From positions 62,001-126,000 of the forward strand of contig JABCYZ010000006.1 in assembly GCA_013289955.1 (NCBI GenBank): 64,000 nucleotides of DNA. Direction: 5' to 3'. The notes under the pieces are model-generated. The model was not told the DNA's origin. It did no database searches and saw only the letters and a program-made list of their open reading frames with translations. The translations under genes and the position numbers were made by a program. Positions 34,646 through 41,306 of the stretch are shown piece after piece; the stretch's first letter is position 1; each line of letters starts with the position of its first letter. The stretch is from Acidobacteriota bacterium. GTDB taxonomy: Bacteria > Acidobacteriota > Terriglobia > Acidiferrales > UBA7541.

Positions 34646-35989
34646 ATGGGAGCGGTTTACCTCATCGTTGGCGTTGTTCTCGTGCTCGGCGTAATGGTTC
34701 TGGTTCATGAATGGGGACACTTCGTCGTCGCGCGGATGTGTGGCGTGCGCGTAGATGTCTTTTCGATCGGCTTCGGTCCGCGGCTCTTTGGATGGAAGAA
34801 AGGGCCAACCGACTATCGGGTCAGCGCGCTGCCGCTGGGCGGCTATGTGCGCATGGCTGGGCAAGATCTTTCCGATGTGGATTCGGGGGATAAGCCGCCG
34901 ACGGGTGCTCCGGATGAGTTAATGAGCAAGCCGAGATGGCAGCGGGCGCTCATCTCCTTTGCAGGCCCTGCCGTGAACCTCGTTCTCCCGATATTTCTTC
35001 TTACTGGACTGTTTGCATTTGCGGGGGTGCCATACCCTGCCTATCTGGATGAACCCGCGCGCGTGGCGGGACTGCCTCCAAGTTCTGACTCGGCTCCGAG
35101 CCCTTTGAAAGCAGGCGACACCGTGCTTTCGATCAATGGAACGGCGACGCCGACCTGGGAACAAGCATTCCTGGCGCTCAAGCAGGTTGTGCCAGGGACC
35201 TCTATCAGGATGGAGGTGGAGTTTGGCGGAACGCGCCGAACGATCGAGGTGCCGGTAAACGATAAGACCGACTCGGGCCGGGTCTTTGGATATTTGCCGA
35301 TTCGCCCCATCATTGACCAGATCGGTCAGGGCGCCCCCGCCGACCGAGCGGGCCTGGAAGAAGGGGATCTGATCACGGCGGTGAACGGAAGCCACATCGA
35401 CTTCTGGGAGCAGTTCCAGCAGTTGACCAGGTCCTCGAACGGCCAGCCCATGGCACTGGATCTTGTTCGCAAAGGGCAGCCGGTGCATTTGGTGGTGACG
35501 CCTGAAAAGGGCGCGGCGGGAACCGGCGAAAACGTTTATCAGATTGGCATTGGTCCCCGCGAAGATACCGCGTACAAACGCGTCGCGTTCACCGAGAGCG
35601 TGAAGATTGCCGGCCTTGAAACCAAGGACACCATCGCGCAGACCGTGGACGTCGTCGGCAAACTCTTTAGCGGACGGGTTTCGATCAAGCAGCTTCAAGG
35701 ACCGGTGGGCATTTCCCATATGGCCGGGGAGGCTGTCAGAAAGGGACCGCCATACGTTGTAACGCTGATGGTCGTGATCAGCATCAACTTGGGAATCCTG
35801 AATCTCTTGCCAATACCAATTCTCGATGGTGGAAATATCTTGCTGCTGGCGATTGAAGGAATCATGCGGCGCGATTTGAGCTTGAGCTTCAAGGAGCGCT
35901 TTGTGCAGGTGGGGCTGGTGTTCCTCTTGGTCATATTCGCCATCGTTATGTATCATGACATTCTGCGGCGGATTTCGAGTCACTCTTAG
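34646..35989 (+). CDS. rseP: RIP metalloprotease RseP (site-2 protease family M50)
   Basis: Intramembrane zinc protease that cuts anti-sigma factors or leftover signal peptides in the inner membrane. The 447 aa product has the HExxH zinc motif in the first helix (LVHEWGHFVVARMCGV, about residues 20-25), the conserved FSIGFGPRLFGW, two PDZ domains (about 110-190 and 215-290, with APADRAGLEEGDLITAVNG), and the third zinc-ligand motif LGILNLLPIPILDGGNI near residue 390. It follows dxr by 26 bp, as in many bacteria. No bamA follows; instead a Fur-family gene is next. Confidence 0.96.
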   Translation: MGAVYLIVGVVLVLGVMVLVHEWGHFVVARMCGVRVDVFSIGFGPRLFGWKKGPTDYRVSALPLGGYVRMAGQDLSDVDSGDKPPTGAPDELMSKPRWQRALISFAGPAVNLVLPIFLLTGLFAFAGVPYPAYLDEPARVAGLPPSSDSAPSPLKAGDTVLSINGTATPTWEQAFLALKQVVPGTSIRMEVEFGGTRRTIEVPVNDKTDSGRVFGYLPIRPIIDQIGQGAPADRAGLEEGDLITAVNGSHIDFWEQFQQLTRSSNGQPMALDLVRKGQPVHLVVTPEKGAAGTGENVYQIGIGPREDTAYKRVAFTESVKIAGLETKDTIAQTVDVVGKLFSGRVSIKQLQGPVGISHMAGEAVRKGPPYVVTLMVVISINLGILNLLPIPILDGGNILLLAIEGIMRRDLSLSFKERFVQVGLVFLLVIFAIVMYHDILRRISSHS

Positions 35990-36022
35990 CCGGGAGTGCG
36001 CCGCACGCCAGGAGGGCGACAC

Positions 36023-36517
36023 ATGTCTGTATCGCCGGGCCACCGGGTTTCGACCGGCGAGCGCCTGAATACCTCAGAGACAACAGGAAAGCTGCAACAG
36101 GCTATACGGGAGCGCGGGATTCGGCTCACGCGGCAGAGGCGTGTCATCCTTGAAGTGATGGATGCGGCTGAGCAGCACCTGGATGTGGATCAGATTCTCG
36201 AGCGGGCACGAAAAATCGATGCGGGCGTGCATCTTGTCACCGTCTACCGCACGATCGATCTTCTTAAAAAGCAAGGCCTTATCGACGAACTTGACCTTTT
36301 GCACCTGCGCGGCGACCGGCACTACTACGAGAGCCACGGTCCACGGGACCACATTCATGTGGCGTGCCTCGGGTGTGGCAAGGTGCGGGAGTTCGAGAGC
36401 CGGCTTTACGAACAGCTCAAACAGCAAATCGCCCGGGACTTCAAGATGAAGGTCACCGTATCGCGCACGGAAGTGGGCGGATACTGCGAAGAGTGTCTGG
36501 TCAAGACCCCTTCCTAG
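36023..36517 (+). CDS. Fur/PerR-family metal-dependent transcriptional repressor
   Basis: From the ATG at 36023, preceded by GGAGG at seven bases, the product is 164 aa; the track start at 35996 is a GTG with no site. The N-terminal winged helix has RERGIRLTRQRRVILEVM and VTVYRTIDLLKKQGLI. The dimerisation and metal domain has HYYESHGPRDHIHVACLGCGKVREF, with the His-rich regulatory site and the first CxxC, and a second CxxC in GYCEECLVK, a structural zinc site. Fur (iron), Zur (zinc), PerR (peroxide) and Mur (Mn) cannot be told apart safely by eye. It lies only 33 bp after rseP and is probably co-transcribed with it. Confidence 0.92.
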   Translation: MSVSPGHRVSTGERLNTSETTGKLQQAIRERGIRLTRQRRVILEVMDAAEQHLDVDQILERARKIDAGVHLVTVYRTIDLLKKQGLIDELDLLHLRGDRHYYESHGPRDHIHVACLGCGKVREFESRLYEQLKQQIARDFKMKVTVSRTEVGGYCEECLVKTPS

Positions 36518-36729
36518 AGGCCGAACGACCGGGAACCAATCGAACGCGCCGCATACTGGGAATCTCTTTTTGCCAGTTGCGTTTGGGTTTTGGACCTTCG
36601 TCGACCAGCACATCCTTTCCATGATGCAGGCCACCTCGACCGGGAGCCTGCAGGCTCAAGCGGCGGGAGCCACTGGGGATCCTCCGGGCGCGCGGCACTC
36701 GTCTCGAGCAGCGGCCCGCTACCGCCAGG

Positions 36730-38550
36730 TCAGACAGAGACGCGCAACGAACGCATGCGGCGCAGACGGGTGAAGAATTTATCGGCGTTGGCGATGTCTC
36801 GGGCGATTTGGGCGCGCAATTCTTCCGGACCACTGAACTTTTTTTCCTCACGCAGACGCTTCCAGAAATGTACCTCGATCCGGCCCGGTGAAATTTCGGG
36901 GATAGGGTCGAGGACATGCGTCTCGACGCTGAGAGTCGAACCATGGAAGGTCGGACGCACGCCGACGTTTGTGACGGAAGGGCGGCTGCGCGATTCGCCT
37001 TCAAGGAGCGTGCGCGTGACGTAAACGCCGCGGGCCGGGAGGAGCTCCTGTTCGGGTGCGAGATTTAACGTAGGAAACGTAAAGCGGCGGCCTCGGCCTG
37101 TTCCGGGGACGACCTTACCGCTGAGCACGAAAGGCCGGCCGAGAAGTCGTCCGGCGTGAGAAACATCGCCCGAAGCGATCTCGCGGCGGATGATGGTGCT
37201 CGAGACGACTTCGTTTTTGCAGACGACGTGCGGGATGATGACGACCTCGAAACCGCGTTCGGCGCCGAGGAGCAGAAGCATGCGGGCGTTGCCGGCCTGT
37301 TTGTGGCCGAAGCGGAAATTCTCGCCGACAAAAACGGCGCGCACTTTAAGATCGCGGACGAGGATCTGGTCAACGAATTCCGCGGGTGTGAGTTTTGCGA
37401 GGTCGTGAGTGAACGGCAGGACGAGGGCGGCTTCGATGCCGAGCTCGGCGAAGCAGCCGAGGCGCTGCTCGGTGGTGGTGACGCGCAATGGAGCCGACTC
37501 TGGGCGAAGAACTTTTTGAGGAAGAGGATCGAATGTCAGGGCCGTGGGCACAGCTTGTATTTCGTGTGCGCGGGCGACCGAGGCGCGAAGGATGGCTTGG
37601 TGGCCGAGATGAATACCGTCGAAGTTTCCGATGGCGAGAGTGCTTCCGCCCTTGGAAGCCGCATAGCGAATCGACCAGGCCAGCGGCGTTGAAAAAATCT
37701 CGAGTGGCGCCCACGGACTTGCGGCCGATCTGAGGACCGGAGACGGCGCGGCGGATTCGTCAACCTGCACTTCGATCTTGAGGCCGTCGTAGGCGAGCTG
37801 GACGTTTGAATAGCCGAGTTGCGACAAGCGCTCATTGGTTTCGGCATGCGACAAATCGTGGGCGATGTGCGTAAACCAGGCGCGGCGTGGATTGAGTTTT
37901 TTGACCAGCGCCAGAGCTTGATCCACGGTTTGATGCATGGGGTGGGGAATGTCGCGCAGGGCGTCAAGAATTAGCTCATCCAAATCGTGCAATAAGGCGA
38001 GCGAAGAGTCGGGGAGCGAACTGAAATCCGTCAGATAAGCCGCGCGGCCAAATCGGAAGCCCAGGACTTCCATGTCTCCATGCAGGAGCGGAATGGGAGT
38101 GAACGTAATGCCCAGAAGCTCGAAGGGTTCTTTGGCTTCGCGAAGGGTGACGCTGGGAACGGAGCTGAGCTTGGGCCTGCCGTCGAAGACGTAGGCGAAA
38201 GCGCGGCGGATGATTTTGAAAGTTTCCGCGTTGGAATAAACGGGGAGCGCCGTCTGCTGCCGGAGATTGTAGGGGCGAATGTCATCGAAACCCATGATGT
38301 GATCGGCGTGGCCGTGTGTGAGGAGAACGGCGTCCAGGCGATCGACACAGGCGCGCAGGCCTTGCTGGCGAAAATCCGGGGTGGTGTCAATGACGACGTT
38401 CTGGCCACTGCGCGAGAGGAGCAGCGAAGGGCGCAGCCGGTTGTCGTGCGGGTCTGGCGAGCTGCAGACGCGGCAGTGGCATCCGAGCGAGGGAACGCCC
38501 ATGGACGTGCCGGATCCGAGTACGGTGATTTCTAGAGGAGCCTGGGGCAT
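36730..38550 (-). CDS. Fusion of a PhnP-like metallo-beta-lactamase and RibF (riboflavin kinase/FAD synthetase)
   Basis: One uninterrupted frame encodes two enzymes. Residues 1-265 are an MBL-fold hydrolase of the PhnP type: LGSGTSMGVPSLGCHCRVCSS with the extra zinc-type GCxCxxC, the metal motif LTHGHADH (78-84), LLHGDMEVLGF and LTDFSSLP. Residues about 300-606 are RibF: FMN adenylyltransferase start LAIGNFDGIHLGHQ (308-317), VFVGENFRFGHKQAG, then riboflavin kinase VPGTGRGRRFTFPTLNL, TNVGVRPTF and ETHVLD. RibF converts riboflavin to FMN and FAD; PhnP-type MBLs cut cyclic phosphodiesters. An upstream TTG (38577) is also possible; the ATG at 38550 begins the conserved domain. This fusion is unusual and may couple flavin synthesis with removal of a cyclic nucleotide or cyclic FMN. 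Confidence 0.9.
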   Translation of the reverse strand: MPQAPLEITVLGSGTSMGVPSLGCHCRVCSSPDPHDNRLRPSLLLSRSGQNVVIDTTPDFRQQGLRACVDRLDAVLLTHGHADHIMGFDDIRPYNLRQQTALPVYSNAETFKIIRRAFAYVFDGRPKLSSVPSVTLREAKEPFELLGITFTPIPLLHGDMEVLGFRFGRAAYLTDFSSLPDSSLALLHDLDELILDALRDIPHPMHQTVDQALALVKKLNPRRAWFTHIAHDLSHAETNERLSQLGYSNVQLAYDGLKIEVQVDESAAPSPVLRSAASPWAPLEIFSTPLAWSIRYAASKGGSTLAIGNFDGIHLGHQAILRASVARAHEIQAVPTALTFDPLPQKVLRPESAPLRVTTTEQRLGCFAELGIEAALVLPFTHDLAKLTPAEFVDQILVRDLKVRAVFVGENFRFGHKQAGNARMLLLLGAERGFEVVIIPHVVCKNEVVSSTIIRREIASGDVSHAGRLLGRPFVLSGKVVPGTGRGRRFTFPTLNLAPEQELLPARGVYVTRTLLEGESRSRPSVTNVGVRPTFHGSTLSVETHVLDPIPEISPGRIEVHFWKRLREEKKFSGPEELRAQIARDIANADKFFTRLRRMRSLRVSV

Positions 38551-38613
38551 GCTGAGATTGCTGAAACTCGTGTGCAAGCGGTCCGAATCAGCCTTTCAAA
38601 AGATTACTGGTTT

Positions 38614-39090
38614 CTAGGGCCGAGTCTTGGCTTTTGCCTGCGTCGTGGCTTGCGCCGCTATCGCCTGATTGACTTCCAGATAGGTCATCTTCAATTTGCC
38701 AAGAAGATCGAGGAGGAGGCTGTCTTCCTCTGGCGCGAGGTTTCCCTTGGTTTTCTCGTGAAGGGAATCGAGCATGTCGATCAACTCATGCGCAGCTTCC
38801 GGGTCGATGACCGGCTGACCGGTGCGTGGGTCGGCATAAGCACCCAGGACCATCGCCGCATTGCTGCCAATCATGCGGACGAGATTTTCGAATGGCTGGG
38901 AGCGCTTGGGCAGGTCGGCCGGAGGTTGCAGCGCGGCAGGCTTGGGAGCTTCGGCGACAGGATGGAGTTTTTCCTCGCGCTTGGCTTCGCGCTCCTTCTC
39001 CTCCATCGCCTCCTTACGGGGTTCACCATCTGCGGTAAAGGGGCGGCGGTCGATGACTCGGAATGATTCTTCTTGTTTGTGATCGGTCAA
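38614..39090 (-). CDS. DUF1844 protein
   Basis: A 158 aa protein with a TTG start behind GAGG. Residues 1-65 are charged and probably disordered (EKEREAKREEKLHPVAEAPK). Residues about 66-145 are the DUF1844 domain: FENLVRMIGSNAAMVLGAYADPRTGQPVIDPEAAHELIDMLDSLHEKTKGNLAPEEDSLL, then a terminal helix LLGKLKMTYLEVNQAI. The domain is common in acidobacteria and other deep-branching phyla; no function is known. It lies 63 bp before the MBL-RibF fusion on the same strand, so it is probably the first gene of that operon. Confidence 0.85.
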   Translation of the reverse strand: MTDHKQEESFRVIDRRPFTADGEPRKEAMEEKEREAKREEKLHPVAEAPKPAALQPPADLPKRSQPFENLVRMIGSNAAMVLGAYADPRTGQPVIDPEAAHELIDMLDSLHEKTKGNLAPEEDSLLLDLLGKLKMTYLEVNQAIAAQATTQAKAKTRP

Positions 39091-39267
39091 GGGAACAATC
39101 CTCTACTGTATTTGTCTGGATAAGTTTAGCACGGGTCAGAGAATTCGGAGGCGGCCCCGTGGGAAGCGTATTGGATACACCGGAACTAAATAGGAAAAGA
39201 TGGGTTAACTAAGATAGGTTAAGATTTTTGAAAGGGCAGTCAAACTAGAACGATAGGGGAGAAGCGA

Positions 39268-40167
39268 ATGCGAGTTTCAAAGCTCATAACGAAAATCCTG
39301 TCAACTGTTCTGACGGTGGCACTGCTGGTAGGCTGGCTACCCGCGGCGGGACTGGCCCAGGACCAGGGTGCACCTCCGCCCTCTTTTTCGCCGGACCAAC
39401 TTGACAAACTTGTGTCACGTATTGCGCTCTACCCGGACCCGCTGCTGGCGCAGCTACTGGCAGCCGCGACTTTTCCGGACCAGATTCCGGACGCTACAAA
39501 ATGGGCGGATGAGCACCACTACCTGACGGGCGACCAACTGGCCACGGCCATTACCGAAGACCATCTGCCATGGGATCCCGCGGTGCAGGCGATGCTGCCG
39601 TTTCCGACCGTTTTGGACACCATGGCTTCCGATATGGATTGGACGACGGACCTCGGCAATGCATTCCTGGCGCAGCGGCAAGATGTGATGGACGCAGTGC
39701 AGAGAATGCGGCAGAAGGCCAAGGATTTTGGCTATCTGCGAACAAATGGACAGATCGTTGTGAGTGGCGGCCCGTACATTGAGATCGCGCCCGTAAATCC
39801 CGCGTTCATTTGCGTGCCGTTCTATGATCCCTTCGTAGTCTATGCCGCGCCGCGGCCGGGGTTTGTGGTTGGCGGAGCGATTGGCTTTGGGTTCGGGGTG
39901 ACGATTGGAACCTTCTTCCGTCCATGGGGATGGGGCTACAGCCGGTTTGATTGGGGAGCACACGGGTTCTACATCTATAACCGGCCTTGGGGCCGCGTCT
40001 GGGGTAATCGATTTGCATATGTTCACGCCTATGGTCCCGGAGTGCGTCGCTGGGATGGCCCGCGTCGCGCGGAAGGGCATGCGTTGGTACAGCGCAGTGA
40101 ACGCGAGCGGAATGCATGGCGCGAAGGACGCGCGCACGTGGAGGAGCATCCGCACCCGCACCGCTAG
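39268..40167 (+). CDS. Exported DUF3300 protein
   Basis: A 299 aa protein with a signal peptide (ILSTVLTVALLVGWLPAAGLAQD), starting at an ATG behind AGGGGAGAAGCG. The DUF3300 domain spans about residues 40-185: FSPDQLDKLVSRIALYPDPLLAQLLAAATFPDQI, ITEDHLPWDPAVQAMLPFPTVLDTMASDMDWTTDLGNAFL. The remainder is Gly/Phe/Trp/Tyr-rich with GFVVGGAIGFGFGVTIGTFF and a basic His/Arg tail (EEHPHPHR). The family is periplasmic or surface-located with no known activity. It is a single-gene unit: a hairpin terminator follows at 40204. Confidence 0.88.
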   Translation: MRVSKLITKILSTVLTVALLVGWLPAAGLAQDQGAPPPSFSPDQLDKLVSRIALYPDPLLAQLLAAATFPDQIPDATKWADEHHYLTGDQLATAITEDHLPWDPAVQAMLPFPTVLDTMASDMDWTTDLGNAFLAQRQDVMDAVQRMRQKAKDFGYLRTNGQIVVSGGPYIEIAPVNPAFICVPFYDPFVVYAAPRPGFVVGGAIGFGFGVTIGTFFRPWGWGYSRFDWGAHGFYIYNRPWGRVWGNRFAYVHAYGPGVRRWDGPRRAEGHALVQRSERERNAWREGRAHVEEHPHPHR

Positions 40168-40203
40168 TCCGCAGGTATAAGTTAATAATTCGACCAGTAC
40201 AAG

Positions 40204-40230
40204 CACACTCCGGCTATCCGGGGTGTGTTT
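40204..40230 (+). terminator. Intrinsic terminator after the DUF3300 gene
   Basis: CACACTCCGG pairs with CCGGGGTGTG (10 bp with one G-T pair) around the loop CTAT, followed by TTTGTATTT. It ends the transcript of the DUF3300 gene, whose stop is 37 bp upstream. Confidence 0.75.
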
Positions 40231-40370
40231 GTATTTAGAGGGCTTCGATCCTGCTGAGCTTCGCCCGGCTTCCCTCCGAAGGAATCTCTCTCTCGTGAGT
40301 CGCTTGTCAAAGTTTGTGGGGCACCGTAGAGTGGAACATTTGTTGCATGACGCAATTGCCCGACAAAGCG

Positions 40371-41306
40371 ATGGCTATCAAAAAGAAAAAGTCACGAAGA
40401 ACGGGAAGGGCTCGAGCCGCTCCTAGAGCCGCTGCGGATTCACAGCGCCTGACGGCGGGGGAGTGGTTCGAGAAACTTGCAGCGGTACAGGCGCGATTGC
40501 GGGCGCCGGACGGGTGTCCCTGGGATCGCGAGCAGACGCATGCCTCTTTGCGAACGTATCTGATCGAAGAAGCTTACGAGGTCCTCGAGGCGCTCGAAAG
40601 CGGGGATGACAGGAAGTTTGCGGAGGAGATGGGGGATTTGTTGTTGCAGATCGTGTTTCATTCAGAGATTGCGAGGGAAGCGGGACGGTTCGACGTTTCC
40701 GACGTGATTCGCGAAGTGCACGACAAGATGGTGCGGCGGCATCCGCACGTCTTTGGAGAAAAGCGCGCGAAGGACTCGGCGGAAGTGCTGAAGAACTGGG
40801 AACAGATCAAGAAAGAGGAGCGCGCCGCGGCCGGCAGGAAAAAGGCGGATGGAGGGAACGAGGGAGAGAAGTCCGGCTCGCTCTTGGACGGCGTCTCGAA
40901 GGCCTTGCCTGCGGCGCTCGAGGGATTTCAGCTTACGCGGCGAGCGGCTCGGATTGGATTTGATTGGGAGAGTGTCGAAGGCGTATTCGACAAAATGAGC
41001 GAAGAGAGCGATGAACTGCGCCAAGCGGTGAGCGCGAAGGATGCCGGGCGAACCGAAGAGGAGATGGGAGATTTGCTGTTTGCAGCGGTGAATTTGGCGC
41101 GTTTTCTGCATGTCGATCCGGAAATCGCGCTAAAGAAGGCCAATCTGAAGTTTTCGAGGCGATTCCGGAGGATGGAAGAATTGGCCTCGAAAAGCGGCAA
41201 GGCGCTGGTGGATGTGCCGCGCGAGAAGATGGAGGAATTTTGGGAAACGGCGAAGCGCGCTGAGAAAGACAGTGCGCGGAAGCTGGCGGAAGCGGGCAAA
41301 GCCTGA
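40371..41306 (+). CDS. mazG: Nucleoside triphosphate pyrophosphohydrolase MazG
   Basis: Hydrolyses NTPs and dNTPs to monophosphates, cleaning the pool of damaged nucleotides. From the ATG at 40371 the product is 311 aa; an in-frame ATG at 40347 is an alternative and neither has a strong ribosome site. Two MazG domains are visible: LRAPDGCPWDREQTHASLRTYLIEEAYEVLEAL and EEMGDLLLQIVFHSEIA (about residues 35-115), and a second with SEESDELRQAV and EEMGDLLFAAVNLARFL (about 205-260). The basic N terminus (KKKKSRRTGRARA) is non-conserved. Its stop overlaps the next ATG (TGATG), so the GNAT gene is coupled. Confidence 0.94.
   Translation: MAIKKKKSRRTGRARAAPRAAADSQRLTAGEWFEKLAAVQARLRAPDGCPWDREQTHASLRTYLIEEAYEVLEALESGDDRKFAEEMGDLLLQIVFHSEIAREAGRFDVSDVIREVHDKMVRRHPHVFGEKRAKDSAEVLKNWEQIKKEERAAAGRKKADGGNEGEKSGSLLDGVSKALPAALEGFQLTRRAARIGFDWESVEGVFDKMSEESDELRQAVSAKDAGRTEEEMGDLLFAAVNLARFLHVDPEIALKKANLKFSRRFRRMEELASKSGKALVDVPREKMEEFWETAKRAEKDSARKLAEAGKA

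Follow-up and report, generated by a model that had tools for sequence, protein, structure and literature searches.

Why would a single open reading frame of an Acidobacteriota bacterium carry both a metallo-beta-lactamase (MBL) hydrolase and the enzyme that makes FMN and FAD? The question arises from a 606-residue protein encoded in the window, the 64,000-nucleotide stretch of DNA analysed here. A first-pass annotation had read it as an intact PhnP-type MBL joined in one frame to an intact RibF. The coordinates agree exactly with that reading, and Pfam recognises each of its domains well beyond the cut-off: Lactamase_B_2 at E 3e-36, FAD_syn at 8e-46 and Flavokinase at 2e-34. The features of the locus are the following.

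36730..38550, minus strand: fused coding sequence, putative Fpd-type MBL plus RibF, 606 residues; ATG at 38550, in-frame TTG at 38577
37765..38538, minus strand: MBL half, residues 5-262, a dinuclear-metal hydrolase of the PhnP family with 53% identity to 6B9V
38464..38481, minus strand: Cys24-x-Cys26-x-x-Cys29, PhnP-type three-cysteine motif, aligned with C23, C25 and C28 of 6B9V
38299..38316, minus strand: His79-x-His81-x-Asp83-His84, catalytic metal motif, from the alignment
37681..37764, minus strand: linker, residues ~263-290, of variable length and sequence (dN/dS and pLDDT in the text)
37198..37656, minus strand: FMN adenylyltransferase (FAD synthetase) domain of RibF, residues 299-451, from Pfam, NCBIfam and fold match
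36775..37146, minus strand: riboflavin kinase domain of RibF, residues 469-592, with FPTLN and VETH, from Pfam, NCBIfam and fold match
38614..39090, minus strand: DUF1844 protein (PF08899, from Pfam), conserved upstream neighbour, 63 bases before the fusion

The frame holds 615 open codons (36730-38577, minus strand). Translation probably starts at the ATG at 38550, the position where homologues also begin (MPxxPLKITVLGSGTSMGVP). The protein is composed of a PhnP-like MBL, a disordered linker of about 28 residues and a complete RibF with its FMN adenylyltransferase (FMNAT) and riboflavin kinase (RFK) domains. Both motifs pointed out earlier in the MBL half are present, GCxCxxC at residues 23-29 and THGHADH at residues 78-84. 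Their ligands (Cys24, Cys26, Cys29, His79, His81, Asp83 and His84) and the further metal ligands His157, Asp175 and His228 are invariant in the alignment of 27 fused proteins, as are the core RibF residues. The RibF half scores 156 bits with FAD_syn and 119 bits with Flavokinase, both above the Pfam cut-off, and passes the NCBIfam RibF equivalog TIGR00083 (248 bits, cut-off 184). It contains GNFDGIHLGH, VSSTIIR, VGENFRFG, FPTLN, VETH and LREEKKF, to be compared with the published definitions GxFDGxHxGH, SS[TS]x[IV]R, PTxN and the catalytic Glu of RFK (PMC2573891); the secondary motif FxP[HQ]P reads FDPLP. When 50 sequences from the window and the loci were supplied to AlphaFold2, the model showed two parts predicted with confidence (mean pLDDT 91) and, between them, a linker whose pLDDT falls below 50 at residues 267-279; with a pTM of 0.56, it does not fix how the two halves are placed relative to each other.

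Is the fusion real? The genus sits in Acidobacteriota subdivision 2 / Ca. Acidoferrales and, according to named records, includes Ca. Acidiferrum typicum. Both halves are in one frame in 30 of its 36 genomes, three of which (G022, G044 and G051) have the gene cut by a contig end. Because the same single-frame architecture recurs in so many genomes, the fusion is neither a chance event nor a sequencing or assembly join, the explanation that the first-pass annotation had named as fatal to its reading. In four other genomes of the genus (G005, G007, G009 and G010), as in relatives, the halves are adjacent separate genes. Whether such pairs exist had been put forward as a check; being adjacent in close relatives, they support a functional link rather than refute it. 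G048 belongs to the fused clade too, but its frame is split in the linker by a 1-bp gap (L118, G048:C337), which may be a real reversal or a sequencing error in the draft genome. G050 is the sole genome among the 36 with no match. G006 has a second, split DUF1844-MBL-ribF set (L122, G006:C16:8500-15500) beside its fused gene. This set lies on a 17.8-kb contig, groups with the family of the genome that matches 6B9V and is probably a contamination of the draft.

What does the MBL half do? Its top PDB match by sequence is 6B9V (E 2e-89), followed by a Brucella protein (1e-47), with E. coli PhnP at 5e-12. 6B9V is also the top fold match (TM 0.94 on the target), and all 13 metal and active-site residues checked are identical between the two. 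The PDB entry is entitled “New Diphosphatase from the PhnP Family”. Within the same class, a 5.65-Mb genome assembled as one contig has a gene (L113) whose product matches the 6B9V chain at 100%, placed directly between DUF1844 and ribF. In the MBL tree, this gene and the window MBL share one supported Acidobacteriota clade. Thus, sequence, fold and clade all place the MBL half with 6B9V and not with PhnP. In NCBIfam, the MBL half is under the cut-off of every curated equivalog, including the PhnP model TIGR03307 (87.7 bits, cut-off 272) and the GPMC system MBL model NF038231 (296 bits, cut-off 360). The gene matching 6B9V also fails the latter (314 bits).

The 6B9V enzyme is Fpd, the FAD photoproduct diphosphatase (Beaudoin et al. 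2018, Biochem J 475:261). Fpd reportedly comes from Koribacter versatilis and was found through gene clustering with FAD synthesis or transport genes. It is said to use Mn2+ in hydrolysing FAD, its photoproducts and ADP-sugars, and to be almost inactive on riboflavin 4',5'-cyclic phosphate. The relevant passage of PMC7599082 describes 6B9V, via its reference 15, as an “FAD photoproduct diphosphatase with Mn”. From these comparisons, the MBL half is best read as orthologous to Fpd, the Acidobacteriota diphosphatase of the PhnP family. Because its closest relative is a diphosphatase found in a DUF1844-MBL-ribF layout in the same class, the whole protein is best read as Fpd-RibF.

This identity bears on the role first proposed for an MBL placed beside an FMN/FAD-forming enzyme, namely the opening of a cyclic flavin nucleotide or the removal of a toxic by-product. 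The second part fits an enzyme that, in the passage just quoted, acts on FAD photoproducts. The first part finds no support, 6B9V being a diphosphatase. In its developed form, this first part would have the MBL half open 4',5'-cyclic FMN to FMN, which RibF would reuse. The PhnP-type fold and the shared metal motifs are compatible with it, and cyclic FMN arises from FAD with divalent metals and is present in animal tissue (PMC12838640). Against this stand the weak likeness to PhnP itself (E 5e-12; 88 bits for a cut-off of 272) and the diphosphatase character of the closest characterised relative, with the near-inactivity on the cyclic phosphate mentioned above. On account of this relative, salvage of cyclic FMN is the least likely of the readings considered, and a highly improbable one.

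The origin of the fusion was followed in a tree of both domains, built with a quick method, with SH-aLRT values as branch support and no bootstrap. Fused proteins from the genus group in a single clade (SH-aLRT 95) that also contains the frame-shifted G048; the four split members of the genus are its sister. The outgroups are all split except two, each a further MBL-RibF fusion with a short linker placed elsewhere on the tree. One belongs to the same family (L116, G091:C99:300-5000), the other to another family, on a 776-kb contig (L117, G248:C2:423000-429500). Since both branch apart from the genus clade, the simplest account is that the fusion arose at least three times independently in Acidobacteriota, each time in the same order. 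In several split relatives the MBL stop overlaps the ribF start (for example GCATGAACC in L026), so that one small indel suffices for fusion. The fusion was probably born in this way, from an older adjacent gene pair by loss of the upstream stop. A wide spread of the fusion outside the class was rejected: the hits in G355, G371 and G336, from other classes, looked like single frames but proved to be tandem genes split by an in-frame stop, and the long MBL frames in G402, G409, G435, G328, G329, G439 and G445 are not RibF fusions.

Both halves are under purifying selection. Pairwise dN/dS values among the fused genes are 0.02-0.13 for the MBL, 0.07-0.28 for FMNAT and 0.07-0.19 for RFK, some synonymous rates being near saturation. 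The linker is far less constrained, with values of 0.42-1.5 where computable, over a short segment. Low values in the domains against high values in the linker argue that all three enzyme domains are kept and that the linker acts as a tether.

Could the fusion nevertheless be one of convenience, in which co-transcribed and co-translated genes merged neutrally and the halves work independently on unlinked substrates, such as RNA or cyclic nucleotides for the MBL? Adjacent genes with an overlapping stop and start are prone to fuse, and the fold is common to RNase Z and cyclic nucleotide hydrolases. A neutral merger is nonetheless very unlikely: the pair has fused three times independently without a change of order, the genus has long kept the fusion, and in Halanaerobiales the MBL has another flavin-like context, described below, all of which argues for a shared pathway of the two halves.

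The genomic context was examined across the phylum and beyond. In family f1 outside the genus, MBL and ribF are side by side in all 42 genomes that list both as separate matches, a number obtained by hand count from the match table. Being fused or adjacent across this family, the MBL is thus linked to FAD synthesis genes, as is Fpd, whose genomic clustering with such genes has reportedly been published. In the phylum-wide sample, the two genes are within about 1 kb in the genomes of family f11 that list both, and far apart or on different contigs in several other Acidobacteriota families. Outside the phylum, no ribF is in view at any MBL locus examined. Both patterns, like the NCBIfam scores under the cut-off, count against the Fpd-RibF reading. 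Seven Halanaerobiales loci (L052, L053, L054, L071, L075, L079 and L082) have the gene for an ECF transporter S component shortly before the MBL, about 0.6 kb upstream. The S component of L053, the only one tested, matches the Pfam riboflavin-type model ECF-ribofla_trS above cut-off, but the general ECF model scores higher. NCBIfam leans towards a folate-type family, below cut-off. Given a riboflavin-type match on one side and a folate-leaning one on the other, riboflavin is a possible substrate of this component, and the pairing a possible second flavin context for the MBL family.

In many Acidobacteriota, as in the window, the gene next before the MBL-ribF pair is DUF1844. In Aminicenantes and in family f38, DUF1844 immediately precedes ribF, without an intervening MBL gene; L070, L073, L078 and L111 are among the loci with one or the other layout. 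A function of DUF1844 near FAD synthesis is suggested; a structure search found no solved relative of it. In the window, a DUF3300 protein (39268-40167, plus strand) is divergent from the DUF1844-fusion gene pair. No Rfam match to an FMN riboswitch was found within 35500-40500.

Taken with its context, the fused protein probably tethers FAD synthesis to a diphosphatase of FAD breakdown products, and probably of FAD too; from sequence comparison, we infer the following scheme. The C-terminal RibF would phosphorylate riboflavin to FMN and then adenylylate FMN to FAD. Decay of FAD would leave reactive ADP-linked short sugars. In the MBL half, two metal ions (Mn in 6B9V) would activate water to cleave the diphosphate of these breakdown products, giving AMP and a phosphate ester; ADP-sugars and FAD itself are probable further substrates. 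The flexible linker would tether the halves, so that clean-up and FAD supply would be made in a fixed ratio and clean-up kept near its source.

Where the damage would come from deserves attention. Record titles place members of the genus in soil at 20-40 cm depth, and a role in photodamage sits uneasily with such an origin. Since only slight light damage is expected there, dark FAD turnover or non-photochemical decay would be favoured, although this argument is circumstantial. The same dark-soil origin weakens light damage as sole driver and lends some weight to a reading in which the main reaction of the MBL half would be the cleavage of FAD into FMN and AMP. The MBL half would thereby oppose the adenylyltransferase and set the FMN/FAD ratio instead of clearing damage. 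Fpd reportedly also hydrolyses FAD, which counts for this reading. Such a switch would be a bacterial counterpart of the human and algal fusions of FAD synthase and FAD hydrolase: the human FAD synthase hydrolyses FAD with its N-terminal domain (PMC6941110) and algal FADS1 retains both activities (PMC9678776), with domains unrelated to those of the fused protein in either case. However, free coupling of synthesis and breakdown wastes ATP unless regulated, and no regulatory domain is visible in the fused protein. We consider the switch unlikely, though a serious rival. Equally doubtful is its broader form, in which the Acidobacteriota Fpd/RibF fusions, at least three in number, would be FAD-homeostasis enzymes with synthesis and hydrolysis on one polypeptide. 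These would be convergent with the human and algal ones, with halves that are regulated or channel their substrate, and would serve a role in the dark and not against light damage. Synthesis of FAD tethered to clean-up of its breakdown products is the reading that we retain.

The pairing of the MBL with FAD synthesis is already explained in its main lines by the published work on Fpd. As far as our searches reach, what is new is the fusion in the genus, a pair of further fusions that arose independently in the phylum, and the MBL/ECF-transporter pairing in Halanaerobiales. As the first-pass annotation had supposed, literature searches found no characterised protein with the MBL-RibF architecture; both halves, taken singly, are published. 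The link of Fpd to FAD synthesis is said to have rested so far on gene clustering and in-vitro assays, and the fusion is independent evidence that this PhnP-family diphosphatase belongs with FAD synthesis. It offers one protein where the making of FAD and the breaking of FAD, or of its by-products, can be studied jointly. Moreover, generic labels such as “MBL fold” or “PhnP-like” in Acidobacteriota can receive a function.

Among known systems, Fpd (6B9V) is alike in fold, metal ligands and DUF1844-MBL-ribF neighbourhood but is free-standing, whereas the MBL of the fused protein is an N-terminal domain joined to RibF. The RibF enzymes of C. ammoniagenes (2X0K) and T. maritima (1MRZ) have both RibF domains and their motifs in common with the fused protein, which adds the N-terminal hydrolase and the linker. 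E. coli PhnP (3G1P), a cyclic phosphodiesterase, belongs to the same superfamily and shares the three-cysteine motif and an HxHxDH-type metal motif, but it is distant and acts in a phosphonate pathway, whereas a diphosphatase is expected for the MBL half. The beta-lactamase-like protein of Brucella melitensis (3MD7, 3PY5, 3QH8) is a related MBL with an Mn2 site, in which AMP or GMP was bound after apparent cleavage between the alpha and beta phosphates (PMC3169410); it is more distant than 6B9V and is without the three-cysteine motif in the alignment. Finally, human FLAD1 and plant and algal FADS1 combine, as predicted here, FAD synthesis and hydrolysis of the FAD diphosphate on one chain (PMC6941110, PMC9678776), and in the human enzyme the hydrolase is likewise N-terminal (PMC6941110). 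Their domains, a PAPS-reductase-like synthase and a molybdopterin-binding-like hydrolase, are both unrelated to those of the fused protein, which is thus a bacterial parallel: the same pairing evolved from other domains.
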